Assembly: GCA_944472135.2 (NCBI GenBank)
Contig: OX235265.1
Span: forward strand, 48,271,459 to 48,335,458
Direction: 5' to 3'
DNA from: Trichobilharzia regenti
Lineage: Eukaryota; Platyhelminthes; Trematoda; Strigeidida; Schistosomatidae
DNA length: 64,000 nucleotides
Under the pieces are notes generated by a model that did no database searches, had not been told where the DNA came from, and worked only from the letters and a program-made list of their open reading frames with translations. Of this stretch, positions 5,335-59,900 are shown in pieces. How positions within the stretch are numbered: the first letter of the stretch is position 1; each line of letters opens with the position of its first letter. Both the position numbers and the translations under genes were made by a program.

Positions 5335-5740
5335 TTTTACGAGTTTGATCACGAATTGATAACATTTAGAGAATCATTGAAAATCAGCGCTGGAGTACTA
5401 GACAGCTGTTTCATCCTAGTTTGGGAATCATCCGCAGTACGCGCCCACCACCAGTGTTCGAACCCACCACCTTCCTGTTACAAGACAAACTCGTATGACA
5501 TTCAGCCACTGGGACCGGATTCAATGGTCAGCCCATGAATTCGAACCTCTACCAGTTCGTGTTTTAACGCGACCACCAACCAATGTCACCGGTAGGAAAT
5601 CCATCCTCACACTTGACTGGTTGGACTTCACTGGTCACGACTTCTTACTAGAACTCCAGGAAACGCCATCCTGTAGCAAGTCACTAGCGTGCATCAGATT
5701 AATTTTCAAGATTTGGTTTGTAAAGATTGCATTTGTTTTT
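5335..5740 (-). mobile_element. Hammerhead-SINE family, complete unit, second subfamily
   Basis: Minus-strand unit with the subfamily-2 hammerhead segment at about 5395-5440 (GTACTGCGGATGATTCCC, GGATGAAACAGC on minus), a tRNA-like head and a body ending in GCATCAGATTAATTTTCAA, the same end as at 39735. The core is mutated (CGGATGA), so it should be inactive. A detached tail piece of the other subfamily lies at 5140-5215. Confidence 0.7.
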
Positions 5741-17794: not shown

Positions 17795-17915
17795 TGATGG
17801 TTGGAGGCAATCGGCAGGAAGCCTTGGACCTAGGTTTCGTGCTAGCTGGCACTCATCAGCAAGGCGTCTACACCAATCAGAGGACTAGACGCATCCCACT
17901 AGTTACTGGTGTCGG
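17795..17915 (-). mobile_element. Third repeat family fragment
   Basis: GGAGGCAATCGGCAGGAAGC, GACCTAGGTTTCGTGCTAGC and GGACTAGACGCATCCCACTA. The tRNA-like part is absent; an RTE fragment follows. Confidence 0.5.
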
Positions 17916-21840: not shown

Positions 21841-22065
21841 AAATCTTTTACTTTGCTGACAAATTTCTTTAAACCCTAAATACTGGATAGTTAACTTAGT
21901 CTGGTGGAACTATTAGCTGTAGGAATCTACTAGACTTATTCAAATGAACGTAATAAAGGCTTCTACTTTAATCGGACAGAGATAATAAAGCCAATAGCTT
22001 ATCGGAAGGATATTTATGAAGTTTATTGATATATTATCTTTCAATAGAAGTTTAATTAATCTCTT

Positions 22066-22093
22066 TTTGTCTTCTCTTTTCTTTTTTTAATAG
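22066..22093 (+). promoter_or_regulatory. 3' splice acceptor of the protocadherin exon
   Basis: A long pyrimidine-rich tract (CTTTTTGTCTTCTCTTTTC, then a T run) ends in AATAG directly before the open exon. This matches a spliceosomal acceptor. Confidence 0.75.
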
Positions 22094-23232
22094 ATACAAT
22101 CTTGAAATACATGAATGTTAGGCGAATATCTTTAATATTTATGTCACATTACCAGTTCCAATGGAAGTGTATACTATTAGTTTATTATGGCATATTGTAT
22201 AAATGCCTTTTATTCACTTTTACTTGTACAAATCTATTTCATATAACCAATGCATGTCAGAGTATTACAACGATTAAAATTACAGAATATTCTACAGAAC
22301 AATTTTTACATCCTGCTAACTTTAATACAATTCATCATTCAGCATGGCCAATGAATCCAACTAATTCACAGTTGTTATCTGTAAATTTAAGTGAAATTCT
22401 TTTGCAAAATTTACACTTAACTCTAGATGATATAAATTCTCCATTGTATTTCTCAGATGTTGAACAAAGTGAACCTTTTGTTATCCGTCGAAGAATAAAT
22501 GATGATCAGACAAAGTCTTTTTGGTATGAGCTAACATCAATTATTCCTATTAATCGTGAGACAATATGTGATGTGAAACGTTACCCGGAACGTGTATCAA
22601 TATCTCAGTTGTGCTGTTCAGCGACAACTACAACTCGACCGACAACATTATTACTAACAGATAGTGTTATTCGTAGTGGAAATATTCACAGTCTTAATGG
22701 TCCATGTTGTGTATTTTTAGGTATTACTGTTGCATCAAGTAATACCTATTTTCTACGTGTTGATATTACAGATGTGAATGATAATTCACCAAAATTTCAA
22801 GATTTAATATTTGGTAAATCTTTAATTAATAAACAGGATAATTATGGAAGATTTTTAATAAGTATCATGGAGAATACACCACCGGGTAGATGGATACCAC
22901 TACCTAAAGCGATCGATTTAGATGAAGGCGTAAATGCTTTCATTCAATATTCAATAAGATTACCAAATAATGAACATTTATGGAGTGAATATTTTAAATT
23001 AATAGATAATGTACAAAATAGTAATATTGAAGCAAATGAAATACCTACAAAAGTTTATTTAAATGGTGATACAAATGAATTTAGTGCTATGGCAGCAGAT
23101 TATAATGGACCTGGATTACTTATCTTAAAGACGTTGGATCGTGAGGTAGTATCTAGTTTTACATTTGTTTTAATTGCAAATGATATGGGACAACCGTATT
23201 CACGATCCAGTTCACTGAATATTTGGCTGAGG
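22094..23232 (+). CDS. Protocadherin, first coding exon (signal peptide and first cadherin repeats)
   Basis: Cadherins are calcium-dependent adhesion proteins of the cell surface; this exon gives the extracellular N-terminus of one. The first ATG in frame is at 22111, giving 374 codons to the exon end. Residues about 1-50 hold a hydrophobic segment (KCILLVYYGILYKCLLF) ending near NAC, which fits a signal peptide. A degenerate first cadherin repeat follows, with INRETIC (compare the protocadherin IDREELC motif). It ends in the linker VDITDVNDNSPKF, a textbook DxNDNxPxF calcium site. The next repeat has MEN, DLDEGVNA (DxDxGxN), LDRE and IANDMG, all in order. A pyrimidine tract and TTTTTTTAATAG end at 22093 (acceptor), and GTAAGT at 23233-23238 is the donor. 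The exon ends on a codon boundary (phase 0). No stop precedes the ATG within the exon, so an upstream coding exon is not excluded. Transmembrane and cytoplasmic parts are not in the exon. Which protocadherin paralogue it is cannot be told. Confidence 0.9.
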
Positions 23233-23238
23233 GTAAGT
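23233..23238 (+). promoter_or_regulatory. 5' splice donor of the protocadherin exon
   Basis: GTAAGT follows AGG at a codon boundary. The reading frame stops three bases later (TAA at 23239-23241), as expected just inside an intron. Confidence 0.8.
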
Positions 23239-23639
23239 TAATGCATTCTGTACAGATTTCTTTAAACTAGCTGTTTTTTAATTGATAATAAGCCTTCTTG
23301 AAGTATTTAAATGTAAAATTTGTATAAGTATTTATAGAGAATGCCTGTTGTACAGGTCATTGTTAATCATTTTAAGGAGAACTGAATTTTACACAGTTGG
23401 AATGTGTCTCTAGAGACAAAGGTTTTTCAAAATGTATATCAATTATGTTTGCTTTAAGTTACTGGGAAGTTTTTAACACTCTGGACACTGAAATCGATGT
23501 TGTTTCTAACTGAAATAATACAGTGATATGTAAAATGTTACACTTTCAAAGTATAGAGATATTTTGCCAGGGTAATAAAGTTCTAAGTCTCTAAGTGCTG
23601 GACTGAAGGAATTCAATTAGTCCTAAGATCAGACATTAA

Positions 23640-27654: not shown

Positions 27655-30215
27655 ATTATTATTATTATTGTTCCCTTGAGTTCCGAGGGGGACATAAGGC
27701 TTCAACAACACATCTCCACTTTAACTCAATTTTAGATTTTCCCATCGATTGATTGAACCGAAGTGCTCAGTCTCAGGTTGACATGTCGGCTTCTTGTGCA
27801 GATGCTTCGACGATGTCTGGGCATTTAATTAGAATTTAATTGGTGGATGGTGACTAGTAGGGGAATCCAGGGTGTGCATTTCGTCCTATTTAGGACTTGT
27901 CATCTGAATCTACCTGCATTTCTCAGCGAGTGATGATGTTCCCACCGAGGTTCGAACTAGGAAATACAGGTACATCCAGCTGACGAGTCCCAAATGCGCA
28001 TCCTGGATTCCACTGCTAATCACTATCCACCAAATAAATTCATCCCCACTTTGTTCTGTTTTCTGTCGCCCTCTACAGCTTGGACCACAGTTACCCACAA
28101 TCTCTTGTCTCCTTGTCACACGATATTCTCCATGCCACCCTAGAACCACCCAGTCGTCGCTTCCGACTCGGATTCCTTTGGAGTACCTGGTGCGCAATGT
28201 CTTTCGATGGTCTCCTCAATGTGTGCCCGATCCATCTAAATTTTCTAATTCGTATTTGCTAAGTGATCGGCTCTTGGTTGGTTAGTTCCCAGTTAGAGTT
28301 TCTTGTTCCTAATTCTTGCCGGCTGCCAGCCATTTCATCTTCAGTCTGGAGCCAGCGAAAGTGGCAGCTGTCGATGAAAGTCTACAATCTGTTGCAAATC
28401 CTTCTCTTGACTGACAATTAGTTCAAGTTTCTGGCCGCATAGAAGAACCGACCGACTTGACATTGGTGTTGGAAATCCTAATCTTGTTCTTTATGTTGAG
28501 TGCAGAAGATTTACAGATTGGTTTCAGGTTGATGAAGGCGTATTTTGCCTAGCTTTGACATCTTCATCCCTTGCGAATGTCTGTGATTGAAATGATGCTT
28601 CCTAGATAAGTGAAGGAAGTCACCTCTGTTAAGTCTCTCCCTCTGAAGGTGATTGGTGCTGTTGTCGGTTGTTGCCGTTGCTGCTGGTTGGTTATCTTCA
28701 TCACCTCCGCCTTCTTTATTTTAACCTGCAGTCCTGTCTTCGCAGGCGGTCAGTGCAGCCGGTTTGTTGGTTTTCACCTGAAAGTCTTCCAGTTCGTGTG
28801 GCATTAGACATTCAGAAATTCAGATCTTCCAGAGTGGTCATCTTACCCAACGCATAGTCTGATGCTTAATTCAGTCCACTACAATTAAGAATATCATCTG
28901 TGATAATACAAAGCCCTGCCTTACTCCTGTGTGCGCTTCGAACGCCTTGCTGAGTTTTCCGTTGTGGATCACCCGACACTTGGCATCGTCACAGAGCAAG
29001 CTGTTGAATGAGGTTGATAAAGACATGAGCACCCCACGCTGTGGTGTTAGAGAATTTTCAGAAATACTCCTTGACGAACGCTGTCTGTCGAAGACCTTTT
29101 GGAAATCGAAGTAGTTGAGGAACAGGTTTGACTGCCATTCTATGCTTTGTTTTGTGCTGACGATGCATGTAGTTGCAATTTGATTAGCACATGACTTGCC
29201 TTTTCTGAATACAGCTTGTACCGTTGGGTGGCATATTCCACATCCAGTGAATTTTTCATTCTCTCCAGGATGATACGACTTAATATTTTACTTGGCGTGC
29301 ACAAGGGCATTATTTCACAAAAGTTCTCGGAGAGATCCAGGTCACTCTTCCTTGATGGTTTGACGAGGTAGCCTTTCTTCCAATCGGTAGGTACCTAATC
29401 TTCTTTCCAAACCTTCTGCAATAATGGCGTGAACAAATCTGTGACAGCCTATAGGTTCGTTTTAAGTGCCTCGTGGGGTGGAATTCCATCTGGTCCCGTT
29501 TCCTTCTTGGCTGGACTGCAGTAGCTTGATCGCATTTAGGATTTCTGCTTTGGTTGTAGTTTTGGTGTCCACTGACAGGCACTTCTGTTCGTGATAGTAT
29601 TTCTGGGTTATTTGCAGATGATGGTCGATTCAAGAGTCCTTTAAAGTGATCAGCCCACTGTTTTATTTACTTCTTCTCCTTGGTAATCAGGTTCCCATGA
29701 ATATGTTTTATTGGTTTCAACATCTGGGTTGACCTCTTTCCGGATAGAGACCTGGTTATTTAATATGTCCTGAGATCTCCTTTACCTGCCGCCTTCCTCT
29801 TCTGCTTCATTTGTCAATGTGTCCTAAAATTGTCTTTTGTCTTTTCTAACACTCTTCTTCACTTCTTTATTCAGTGCAGTGTAGATTGAACTCAGCTTTT
29901 CCTTCTGTTTTCCATTTTTGTATTGAGTCATCTCTTTCACAATCCTTCTCTCCTTGAGGTAGGTATCCGTTGAGAGCCATTCTTTGTTGTATCTCTTCTT
30001 TCTCCTTAGAACATTTGTACATGTTTCCTTGAACATCACCTTCAGAGAGTTCCGATGTTCTTCCACACAGGTTTCCTCATTGATATCATATAGTGTCTCC
30101 AACGTTGCCCTGATCCGATCTGTAGTAAAGGCATCCCCTGTAGTCTTGTCTTTCCGTTTCTGAATGCTGAACTTGAATTTTGGTCTGTCTACAGTTGTTT
30201 TAAAGGATTTTAGCT
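27655..30215 (-). pseudogene. RTE-clade (SR2-like) retrotransposon, 5'-truncated, dead reverse transcriptase
   Basis: RTE elements encode an AP endonuclease and a reverse transcriptase that copy their RNA into chromosomal DNA. Reading the minus strand from 30215, there is an open piece (KKRYNKEWLSTDTYLKERR, 30102-29824) from the stretch between endonuclease and RT. Then come RT motifs in several frames: GKSCANQIATT (29210-29180), LFLNYFDFQKVFD (near 29110; usual FIDFKKAFD) and GVRQGFVLS (near 28930; usual GVRQGCLLSP). The C-terminal part includes VKSVLLCGQK (near 28460) and MDRAHIEETIERHCAPGTP (about 28240-28185; usual WIGHTLRK). Stops and frameshifts are frequent. The endonuclease is missing. 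An Smα block interrupts the 3' region (27723-28048). The 3' end is a TAA/TTA repeat at 27655. Assignment to SR2 is by RTE motifs and schistosome context. Confidence 0.8.
27723..28048. mobile_element. Smα inverted pair inserted in the RTE 3' region
   Basis: 27733-27955 is a minus-strand Smα (hammerhead at about 27870-27915; core mutated to ATGACAA). 27970-28045 is a plus-strand piece: CTGACGA core, then GTCCCAAAT joined straight to GCGCATCCTGG, so stem II's second arm and GAAA are missing. The flanking RTE sequence (ACACATCTCCA ... TTTGTTCT) is continuous at 63838-63852, which shows that this block is an insertion. Confidence 0.72.
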
Positions 30216-38669: not shown

Positions 38670-39364
38670 TGGTAATCTAGTATGTGTTCCTCAGACACGA
38701 TCTTCAAATAAAATAAAAATAATCTATAATTCATTTGAAGCATTTTCGCTTTATCCAATACTCCACAATCGCTTTCCCGAGTTTTCTTTAAAAACTGTTT
38801 ATCAGTAGGTTAAAACTAATTGAAAATGGGCGTCAGCGCCGGTTGCTACTCAAGGATTCAGTTAAATGAATAAAACACCATAAAACGCAGTAAATATGAT
38901 ACATTTTGATGGATGGACTAGTGATGTGCATAGGCCATCATTAGACTAGTATCAACTTTCAAAACAATGGCCATCTAAGTAATCTGTTCAACTCTAATGA
39001 TTTTACCTAAGAATTCCACAATATTTTAAATAAATGCAAAAGTGACTGAAATTTGAGTATCTTTCTTATTATTGTTTATGTCGCAAAATCACTAATATGT
39101 CGAGTTATGTAGGAGAGTTTCTTCACTCTCATCAACTGAATCGTTAAAATTACTCTTGTCAGAACCTAATGGAATTTTATTCGAATATATATATATATAT
39201 ATATAGCATAATGAAGAAGGTACTATGAATGGGGTTGAACATAAATTACTTGGTTAGTTGTCTAGCTTTTGTATGCCATTTCATCCACGTCTTTCTTTTC
39301 TTTTTCTAACCAGCTGGAGAAACGTCTTTTCCTAAAATTTCGTCTTAATTTAATTTTTTTGTAT

Positions 39365-39761
39365 GAAGGATTTAATCATGAGCTGACCTCAGTTAGAGAA
39401 CCGTTGGAAAACCTGGGAGTACTGGACAGTTGTTTCGTCCTAGTTTGGGACTCCTCAGCAGTACGCACCCACCGGGGTTCGAACCCAGGACCTTCTGGTT
39501 ACAAGGCGAGCTCGTAGACCATTGAGCCACTGGGACTCGATCCAATGGTTCTTGAATTCTAACTTCTGCCAATTCACGATATAGAGCGACCATTTCACAA
39601 TGTCTTCTTCGATGAGTTACTACCCCACCTTCAACCTGATGCACCATACTGGTCACGGCTTCCCACTAGAACCCCAGATTAACTGCGTGAATAGGACCAG
39701 TCGCTAGTGAGCATCAGATTAATTTTCAAGTATTGGTTTTGTAGGGATTTTTTGATTGCAT
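39365..39761 (-). mobile_element. Hammerhead-SINE family, complete unit (tandem copy 1, 397 bp)
   Basis: Read on the minus strand, a tRNA-like head has an A box (GTGGCTCAATGGTCTACG) and a B box (GGTTCGAACCC). A hammerhead-like fold follows at 39464-39419, then a tail with GAGCTGAC/CAGTTAGAG motifs read on plus. The same order of blocks recurs at 39762-39870, exactly 397 bp away, so this is a head-to-tail repeat. Other full or near-full units are at 7545-7905, 5335-5740 and 62050-62400. The head resembles a tRNA with anticodon-like TGT (Thr-like), but this is only a resemblance. Pol III transcription is inferred from the boxes. Confidence 0.8.
39419..39464 (-). ncRNA. Hammerhead ribozyme, core intact (copy 1)
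   Basis: Minus strand, in order: GTACTG (stem I 5'), CTGAGGA (core C3 U4 G5 A6 N7 G8 A9), GTCC / CAAACTA / GGAC (stem II and loop), GAAAC, a short stem III ending CTGTC (cleavage after C), CAGTAC (stem I 3', fully complementary to GTACTG). Every base invariant in hammerheads is present; position 7 is G, which the family tolerates. Stem III is only ACAA/CTGT, so monomer activity would be weak. Predicted cut is between 39425 and 39424. Confidence 0.7.
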
Positions 39762-39870
39762 AGAGGATTTCACCATGAGCTGACATCAGTTAGAGAACCA
39801 CTGGAAAACCTGGGAGTACTGGACAGCTGTTTCGTCCTAGTCTGGGACTCCTCAGCAGTACACACCCACG
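39762..39870 (-). mobile_element. Hammerhead-SINE family, partial unit (tandem copy 2)
   Basis: Repeats the tail and hammerhead part of the unit at 39365-39761 with a constant 397-bp offset. It breaks off just beyond the hammerhead at CACCCAC, so its tRNA-like head is missing. Confidence 0.8.
39816..39861 (-). ncRNA. Hammerhead ribozyme, core intact (copy 2)
   Basis: Same layout as the copy at 39419-39464: GTACTG, CTGAGGA, GTCC / CAGACTA / GGAC, GAAAC, AGCTGTC, CAGTAC. Stem I is a perfect 6-bp helix. Stem III is ACAG/CTGU, a self-complementary octamer with no loop, so it would form either 2 bp closed by AGCU or a double hammerhead between two RNAs. Predicted cut is between 39822 and 39821. 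Confidence 0.72.
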
Positions 39871-58085: not shown

Positions 58086-59409
58086 GGCTGGGTTAGGGTG
58101 AAGCTAAGTGAGGCTAAATTTGTCCAAGATGTTACACAAATTGGGAAATCTAAATATGCGCCAAGACAAGTCGCAGTCTTTTGAGAGATCTTTTTTACCG
58201 TAATAATCCAATTAGTAGTAACTGCATTCAAGACATATCATAAATAGATCTGCTAATGTCTTTTTCGAAGACTGTAATACACTCTCATTAAATATGTTGA
58301 AACAGAAGAGTATAAGAAAGGGAAATAGTAGATTGAGAAAATTATAAATTTAAATGACACTTAATTAAACTTTTGGAGTCATATTACAATGATTGTTTTT
58401 CTGTCATATTCCAAGACTATTTCATTATTGGTTACCTGTTCGTTTAAGACACCAGTGAACTTCATTCTCTAAATGAAATGCACACTGGTTATACTCTGAA
58501 TTCATCATTCCAGAAAAACCCTCATAAATATTCACTAATGCATTTTGAGATTAACTTGCTTAACAATTGTTTCATGTGAAGTTTATCATTAAAATGGTAT
58601 TTCATTAAAAAGAGGTCGTTCTTTTCTAAAATGTCTGTTCCGACATTTACTTTAACTTGAATCTTTTACTTACAAAGGTTATTAGTCACTCTTGACACTG
58701 CTAGATAACCCTATGGTAAAGTGACTGTTTACTCTCATGACGGAGCATTTCTCCAAGTGGTTGAAAAAAAACAGCTGAAGTCAAGTTATCAGAAAGTTCG
58801 ATAACAAGCCATCTTACAGGCTTAAGATATGATATTGACTCTGTCAAGTCACTGACTTTTATCATCTAACAAGTAAATGGAAAGATGTTTGCATCTGTAG
58901 AGGCTTGTGGAATTAGAGTGCGTCAAGTAGATCTCTGTGTACAGAAGGATATGAGAGTCACTTTAAGTCTACCGCAGCAATATCTGTTATTAACATTAAT
59001 ATTTTATTTCATCTCTCATTATTATTATTATTACTTTTGACTCATTTAAAACTGTCGTTTGTCAGTGCGATTATCCTAACGCATTGTTTATCATTAGTAT
59101 TTTTACTCATTCTGCAATCCCTGACATTTTCAGGTTCTTTCTCTAGTTACTAATTATTTATTTAAGTAATGTCACTGAACTGTATTCCATTATGTTCCTA
59201 ATTTTTAATCTCTCATAACTGTTCCCTCTTACGTGTCTGAAATCAGCCTATGAAGAATTCACAGATGTCGTTTTGCATGAATGATTCACTGTAGTCTACT
59301 AATTAATCACTTGAATATCTCCCAATGTATTCCTTATCGTATAGAGAATTCAGGTAACAGGTTCTCCGGAGTTTTATGAATTCATTAAATCCTCCTTTAT
59401 TGAATTCAA
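58086..59409. other. No gene recognised
   Basis: AT-rich with ATT stretches near 59017-59035. Nothing matched. Confidence 0.5.
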
Positions 59410-59700
59410 CTTTTAGATTTTCCCGTCTGTTGAGTGGACCAAAGTGTTCGGACTCAGGTTGACATATCGGCTTCTCGTGCAGATGCTTCGACAATGTCTG
59501 GGCATGAAATTAGAAGTTAATTGGTGGATAGTGACTGGCAGTGGAATCAAGGATGCGTATTTCGTCCCATTTGGGACTCGTCAGCTGGATGTACATGCAT
59601 TCCCCAGTGGGTGATGATACTCCCACCGAGGCTCAAACCCAGTGCCCATAGTTTCAAACGCCAAAGCGTTATCCACTAGACCACTTGGGCCACGGGAGCC
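59410..59700 (-). mobile_element. Smα-type hammerhead SINE
   Basis: Minus strand: tRNA-like head at about 59690-59620 (GTGGTCTAGTGGATAACGC A box; GGGTTTGAGCCTC B box), hammerhead at 59594-59538, then a body shared with 27733-27850 (GCAGATGCTTCGAC on plus). This matches the known schistosome Smα family, a tRNA-headed SINE with a hammerhead. It is the best-preserved Smα copy in the window. Confidence 0.82.
59538..59594 (-). ncRNA. Smα hammerhead ribozyme, core intact
   Basis: Minus strand: ACATCCAG, CTGACGA (N7 = C), GTCCC / AAAT / GGGAC, GAAAT, ACGCATC (cut after C), CTTGATTCC. All invariant core bases are present. Stem I has one mismatch (CCAG against CTTG), and stem III is short and imperfect. 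Confidence 0.65.
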
Positions 59701-59739
59701 ACCTCTTGTACAACGGGACAAATTAATTATTTGATTTGA

Positions 59740-59900
59740 TTTTAGATTTTCACATAGATTGACTGGGCTGAAGTGTTCGGTCTCTCGGTGGGAACATCAT
59801 CACTCACTGGGGTTCGCAGGTACATCCAGATGACGGGTTCTAAACCGGACGAAATGAGCATCCTGGATTCCACTACCAGTCACCATCCATCCATTGGCTC
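59740..59900 (+). mobile_element. Smα fragment facing the 59410-59700 copy
   Basis: Plus strand: GTACATCCAG, ATGACGGGTTCTAAACC, GGACGAAATGAGCATCCTGG, ATTCCACTACCAGTCACC. Core positions C3 and A9 are mutated, so it should be inactive. With the minus copy it forms an inverted pair. Confidence 0.7.

Follow-up and report, generated by a model that had tools for sequence, protein, structure and literature searches.

The trematode Schistosoma mansoni harbours several families of hammerhead ribozyme repeats, among which W25.2, W26.2 and W27.2 are characterized by a unit of 399–428 bp (PMC8490949; this and all other papers are cited from excerpts). Three of five S. mansoni hammerhead candidates tested, variants of W25.2 and W36.2, cleaved in vitro, and a target duplication is suspected for one W25.2 copy (PMC8490949, PMC2770079). 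The partner that spreads the animal retrozymes, a comparable group of repeats, has been left open, as no conserved motif is available from which to deduce it (PMC7761336), and Penelope-like elements (PLEs) have been named a strong candidate (PMC7229834); the excerpts of these two papers hold no insertion evidence for a partner. PLEs form partial tandems, carry a hammerhead and start reverse transcription internally, at two neighbouring sites within an AC-rich stem-loop, and the optional 30–40-bp tail between these sites is called a signature unique to them; the PLE protein of the anole cuts and extends both strands (PMC11167929). They also occur as head-to-head inverted repeats in which one inverted copy bears the tail and target duplications are short (PMC3846280). 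The present analysis concerns a locus at 39354–39869, on the minus strand, in a stretch of 64,000 nucleotides of Trichobilharzia regenti contig OX235265.1, hereafter the window. The locus comprises 1.30 head-to-tail units, a partial dimer, of a short interspersed element (SINE) of 397 bp that bears a hammerhead and a tRNA-like part, and the family to which it belongs was likely inserted by a PLE acting in trans.

The initial annotation had placed two minus-strand hammerheads at 39419–39464 and 39816–39861, 397 bp apart, and had suggested a covariance-model search as a check. With cmscan, RF00163 calls both at exactly these coordinates and well above its gathering score of 34 (Table 1). They are type I hammerheads in which CTGANGA, GAAA, GTC and the six-pair stem I GTACTG/CAGTAC are all intact, as had been claimed. 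The copies are indeed head-to-tail, in a shorter form than the two tRNA-headed units first described: aligned by blastn to a multi-unit reference, the element measures 516 bp and runs from position 255 of the 397-nt unit across the unit junction to position 375. The first copy has its start at 39869, a short way upstream of its own hammerhead, and is devoid of the tRNA-like part and the body, which are present in the second copy only. The tRNA-like part itself reaches 17.3 bits with RF00005 against an Rfam cut-off of 29; words resembling the A and B boxes are present by eye. Over 122 positions the two units are 89.3% identical. If one transcript spans both hammerheads, cleavage at the predicted sites would release a 397-nt RNA. 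A hammerhead cleavage product was rejected as the source of the short first copy, which starts upstream of the whole hammerhead; an RNase Z cut at the tRNA-like part was also weighed, and 5' starts in the family are scattered.

The locus is not an isolated case. A survey was carried out over 314 kb of the same genome, chosen by coordinate and composed of the 64-kb window, 200 kb (100 kb adjoining the window and ten stretches on C1–C3) and 50 kb of C1; counts quoted for 264 kb refer to the window and the 200 kb. Eleven chosen loci, L035–L042 (picked by hammerhead spelling) together with L005, L007 and L008, were counted apart. A family profile, which also catches copies of the SMalpha type, finds 103 copies above 15 bits in the 314 kb. 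The window alone contains 34 places by iterated profile, with 31 in the alignment, and nine hammerheads at or above the RF00163 cut-off with at least three stem I types. Genome-wide, a simple hammerhead core pattern exceeds its reversed control by about 48,000 occurrences (954-Mb assembly).

Copies that reach the unit start mostly run on into the tail of the previous unit and a linker of ~13 nt (10 of 12 readable rows, by eye; 8 of the 20 listed were set aside for head-to-head partners, internal gaps or unreadable flanks). The junction is crossed by six copies in 264 kb according to blastn, and a junction 27-mer with at most seven mismatches is met at nine places in 314 kb, compared with 0, 0, 0, 2 and 0 for five scrambles; both counts include 39354–39869. 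As this fixed junction recurs at other loci, the template RNA is taken to have been multimeric or circular. That argument is founded on the shared junction and not on numerous same-strand pairs: close same-strand pairs number five, against a mean of 4.9 and a maximum of 14 in 500 shuffles. L040 172–867, a 1.29-unit tandem, starts at unit position 251, close to position 255 of the present locus, and has an inverted partner; a target duplication was not found there.

The commonest paired form in the family is the head-to-head double insertion. Close pairs in the 314 kb comprise 21 head-to-head and 0 tail-to-tail cases, while 500 shuffles of positions and strands give means of 2.4 and 2.5, respectively, and a maximum of 8 for each. 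A stricter blastn definition yields 14 head-to-head, 0 tail-to-tail and 2 same-strand pairs, and the 11 chosen loci contribute nine head-to-head pairs, with seven of the eight loci L035–L042 holding one. No close inverted pair was found among 71 copies of four other repeat queries, taken for long interspersed elements (LINEs) from their open frames, same-strand pieces having been merged beforehand. One target duplication of 11–15 bp, with a score of at least 11, surrounds the whole pair in 10 of 15 head-to-head composites, whereas the rate among 1500 places drawn at random is 1.7%; TA-rich sequence is seen in one of these ten. The A+T content of eleven duplications, nine of them flanking pairs and two flanking single copies, is 79%, versus 63% in the window. 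The abundance of head-to-head pairs, often inside one target duplication, makes it likely that the family was spread by Penelope-type retrotransposons.

The 3' ends of the SINE point in the same direction. Their distribution is bimodal, with ends at unit positions 349–375 and 399–405 (50 placements at 78% identity or more); an extra group at position 338 is a diverged lineage. The outer ends of a pair are one short and one ~36 nt longer in all 14 pairs whose two ends could be resolved by coordinate, seven in the 314 kb and seven in the chosen loci, nine of 23 pairs having an unclassable end. If ends were drawn independently, such an outcome would have a probability of 3e-5 to 6e-5. No other 29-mer of the unit is as rich in A+C as the segment between the two end positions (86%). 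Partial tandems, head-to-head inverted copies, an optional 30–40-bp tail, a hammerhead and short target duplications are all shared with PLEs (PMC11167929, PMC3846280): the family displays both head-to-head copies within one duplication and, in resolved pairs, the tail on one inverted copy.

PLEs reside in the same genome. One group gives at least 134 matches (132 of 57,299 candidates scored), many with open frames of 810–823 aa, and PLE neighbours within 12 kb, among the matches listed, are 10 head-to-head and one tail-to-tail (by eye). Head-to-tail arrays with a spacing of 2.90 kb are present at C1:108014293-108020994, C3:110285192-110294663 and C1:19546254-19576205; most of their copies have open frames, which suggests recent activity. 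Of three homologues scanned, all have a reverse transcriptase match (one just under the cut-off) and two a weak GIY-YIG match below the cut-off (E 0.008 and 0.0024); a GIY-YIG family search for PLEs, in which 150 of 1801 candidates were scored, returned at least one match. Homologues of a reverse transcriptase frame are present in Schistosoma and Trichobilharzia, and both Perere and Penelope/Poseidon PLEs are reported for S. mansoni (PMC6515669). A hammerhead-like core with a palindromic stem III is visible by eye just before the PLE frame in the two upstream regions read (1.2 and 1.4 kb).

The proposed insertion pathway would begin with a multimeric or circular SINE RNA, as suggested by copies that continue across the unit junction. 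A PLE protein would then make a double-strand cut, staggered by 11–15 bp, in an AT-rich target, matching the duplications observed. Reverse transcription would be initiated internally, at either of two sites of the RNA ~36 nt apart that flank the A+C-rich segment, in keeping with the two end positions. A separate copy would be primed from each DNA end, one per site, and the joining of the 5' ends would produce a head-to-head pair with a short and a long end, the structure found in the resolved pairs. Should one side only succeed, the outcome would be a single or partial tandem copy, as may be the case at 39354–39869.

A number of observations weigh against this scheme. At the locus itself no significant target duplication and no inverted partner were found. 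The 15 composites tested for duplications are the better preserved ones; five of them (L040, c1b 11165, L020 5520, big 5217 and big 42009, where c1b denotes L030–L034 joined and big L009–L018 joined) have none that reaches a score of 11, and five of the 21 composite blocks (tandems among them) that lie in 264 kb reach a score of 10 or more, the null being 1.8%. Copies on a single strand with their own target duplication exist (L020 2946 and window 7542). A looser motif rule applied to 18 pairs gives seven long/short, one long/long and two short/short combinations, with eight truncated or unclear, and no stem-loop is predicted in the A+C-rich zone between the two ends. In vitro, the anole PLE displayed no start-site difference between the strands (PMC11167929), so a strict rule of one short and one long end is not predicted; the rule is a feature of the SINE, set against PLEs. 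Similarity between paired copies mostly does not exceed that among other copies, and the idea that pair members stem from one and the same RNA received mostly no support. The hammerhead-like core before the PLE frame is not called by Rfam, and around the first PLE copy an Rfam search gave no hammerhead and one chance match. Finally, the SINE shows no similarity to two PLE stretches (blastn E 3 or worse; 0.12 for the SMalpha unit) nor to PLE-frame homologues (best 120 of 1740; best E 1.8 for the SINE and 1.1 for SMalpha), in a comparison that covered one PLE group. No support was found for the SINE descending from the leader or the coding start of a PLE. The SINE is not a PLE itself: unlike the autonomous elements, which combine a reverse transcriptase with a GIY-YIG endonuclease, it is non-autonomous, carries neither, has no coding similarity to the same homologues and does not match in sequence the PLE stretches read.

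The rival that survives best is the classical metazoan retrozyme, whose logic the initial annotation had invoked. Here the hammerheads would cut multimers, tRNA ligase would circularize the 397-nt RNA and the circle would be copied and inserted, more than one round giving a tandem. This course is possible rather than probable. Analogously to metazoan non-LTR retrozymes (those without long terminal repeats, LTRs), the SINE has a type I hammerhead in a small, low-GC tandem unit, 150–450 bp in their case, with no LTR (PMC7229834, PMC7761336) and no coding region; its tandems are few and, unlike theirs, it has a tRNA-like part, mostly dispersed copies and many head-to-head pairs. Circles of this kind have been demonstrated in coral, mussel and axolotl (PMC7229834). 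The fixed junction and the two intact hammerheads of the locus fit such a circle, as does L020 2946–3342, which is exactly one lap (unit position 374 to 373). Placement lengths show 13 of 73 at 0.85–1.16 laps, 10 of 73 at 0.55–0.85 and none above 1.37; this weak second mode near one lap and the end of the distribution at 1.37 laps suggest a circle, short of proof. A linear multimer, however, accounts for the junction equally well, and a circle alone leaves the head-to-head pairs unexplained.

The predicted fold is ambivalent. Stem III in a single copy consists of 2 bp and a 4-nt loop and is not stabilizing (-6.6 versus -7.6 kcal/mol without stem III). Between both hammerheads of one transcript it could form seven of eight pairs, a dimeric mode known from newt and viroid hammerheads (PMC6155905). 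In the predicted fold of a 561-nt transcript, hammerhead 1 receives partial weight and hammerhead 2 almost none, which counts against the retrozyme course.

The state of the ribozyme across the family is a further difficulty for that course. By a strict position rule, and with SMalpha-type rows included, 11 of 67 readable hammerheads have an intact core and GAAA and 56 are broken, so that cutting seems dispensable for spread. Lesions are shared: C3 is changed to A in 24 of 67, in both stem I types, and a U4 change with loss of the 10.1–11.1 pair is found in nine of 67. Since lineages with common dead hammerheads have spread, one such copy (window 5344–5728) even crossing the junction, cleavage cannot be a strict need. 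Analogously, hammerhead mutants of the anole PLE still insert in vitro (PMC11167929). Hammerhead cutting is thus probably dispensable for insertion and spread, and the role of the ribozyme may be RNA processing, optional for insertion. As the whole story the retrozyme is rejected, on account of the pairs arranged head to head and of the groups whose hammerheads are dead; what stands of the initial logic is the fixed junction and a multimeric or circular template. In one head-to-head pair, L020 5520–5824, the catalytic C3 differs between the halves (C versus A), and another variant is common to both.

A SINE mobilized in the ordinary way by LINEs, its 5' inversions arising from twin priming or template jumping, is improbable. 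Target duplications of 11–15 bp and 5' truncation are also LINE-like, and several copies start near the tRNA-like part. Under twin priming, however, the members of a pair would not both carry their own 3' end, as they do in the resolved pairs; the 3' ends fall into two internal classes, and the presumed LINE queries described above are free of close inverted pairs. Duplication at the DNA level, with the tandem made by unequal exchange and inverted pairs by chance neighbouring insertion, is very unlikely: the lack of a target duplication at 39354–39869 leaves an exchange origin possible for that locus, whose units are similar, but the junction is common to dispersed loci, and the orientation bias of 21 to 0 and the single duplications round pairs argue against it.

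PLE-driven insertion being the preferred reading, the position of the family among the S. mansoni repeats can be considered. Like SMalpha/W36.2 and W25.2–W27.2, it has a type I hammerhead with a very short stem III, is SINE-like and has both tandem and scattered copies, numbering tens of thousands; a tRNA-derived nature is described for SMalpha, comparable with the tRNA-like part here (PMC8490949, PMC2770079). Its 397-bp unit lies close to the 399–428 bp of W25–W27, a comparison of unit lengths. The family is probably related to these repeats and is probably not undescribed; the initial annotation knew of no description of it. The excerpts of the two papers make no mention, for the S. mansoni repeats, of head-to-head composites or of the rule of two ends. 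The distinction from SMalpha does hold: the latter is of the ATCCAG type, whereas the stem I here is GTACTG/CAGTAC and the body is another.

Elements of the SMalpha type are also present in T. regenti. In the window their hammerheads lie at 59546–59590 (minus), 59824–59868 (plus) and 27865–27909 (minus), the first two facing head to head. A profile built on an ATCCAG copy (59341–59720) finds 80 places above 30 bits, many of them common to the SINE family, with 13 head-to-head, one tail-to-tail and four same-strand pairs. All four same-strand neighbours have a junction gap of 7–9 nt, so that SMalpha-type copies, too, run through a fixed junction, and the head-to-head pair L015 246–581 carries the duplication AAAAAGATATT. 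The proposed insertion mechanism may extend to these elements.

Two other features of the window are recorded. A third hammerhead type at 17821–17865 (minus) has a stem I of GCCTTG, a palindromic stem III and a stem II of GTGC/GCAC, with similar spellings genome-wide. An open frame of 393 aa at 22060–23241 (plus) has weak protocadherin similarity and matches a 399-aa protein at 67%.

Table 1. Parts of the hammerhead SINE locus, in window coordinates.
Feature	Position	Strand	Basis
Whole element, 1.30 head-to-tail units	39354..39869	-	blastn, unit 255 to 375
Hammerhead 1, type I, intact core; predicted cleavage 39822/39821	39816..39861	-	RF00163, 52.6 bits, E 7.6e-11; core table
Hammerhead 2, type I, intact core; predicted cleavage 39425/39424	39419..39464	-	RF00163, 51.4 bits, E 1.9e-10; core table
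A+C-rich optional tail of first copy, between the two 3' end positions of the family; proposed reverse-transcription start zone	39730..39758	-	86% A+C, richest 29-mer of the unit; bimodal 3' ends
Unit junction: linker, then start of next unit	39704..39724	-	27-mer search; junction-crossing copies
Body of second unit, upstream of tRNA-like part	39538..39711	-	nhmmer and blastn copies
tRNA-like part; A-box-like word 39519-39529, B-box-like word 39476-39486	39464..39536	-	RF00005, 17.3 bits, under cut-off; boxes by eye
T4 run between both hammerheads, possible RNA polymerase III stop (putative effect)	39805..39808	-	read from sequence
3' part of second unit, ends at short end position	39354..39418	-	3' end at unit 375

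In the open-licence literature searched, no description of such insertion scars was found for hammerhead SINEs. On balance we lean towards the view that schistosome hammerhead SINEs, the SMalpha type included, are passengers of Penelope: their typical new insertion would be two-sided, with a copy primed at each end of a staggered cut, PLEs would be the mobilizer of animal retrozymes and the hammerhead would be optional. The scars bear on the open question of which enzyme spreads animal retrozymes, and they are countable in any schistosome genome. If the insertions are PLE-driven, they name the partner that papers on retrozyme-type repeats leave open, and their very many sites would document PLE insertion chemistry as it took place in nature.
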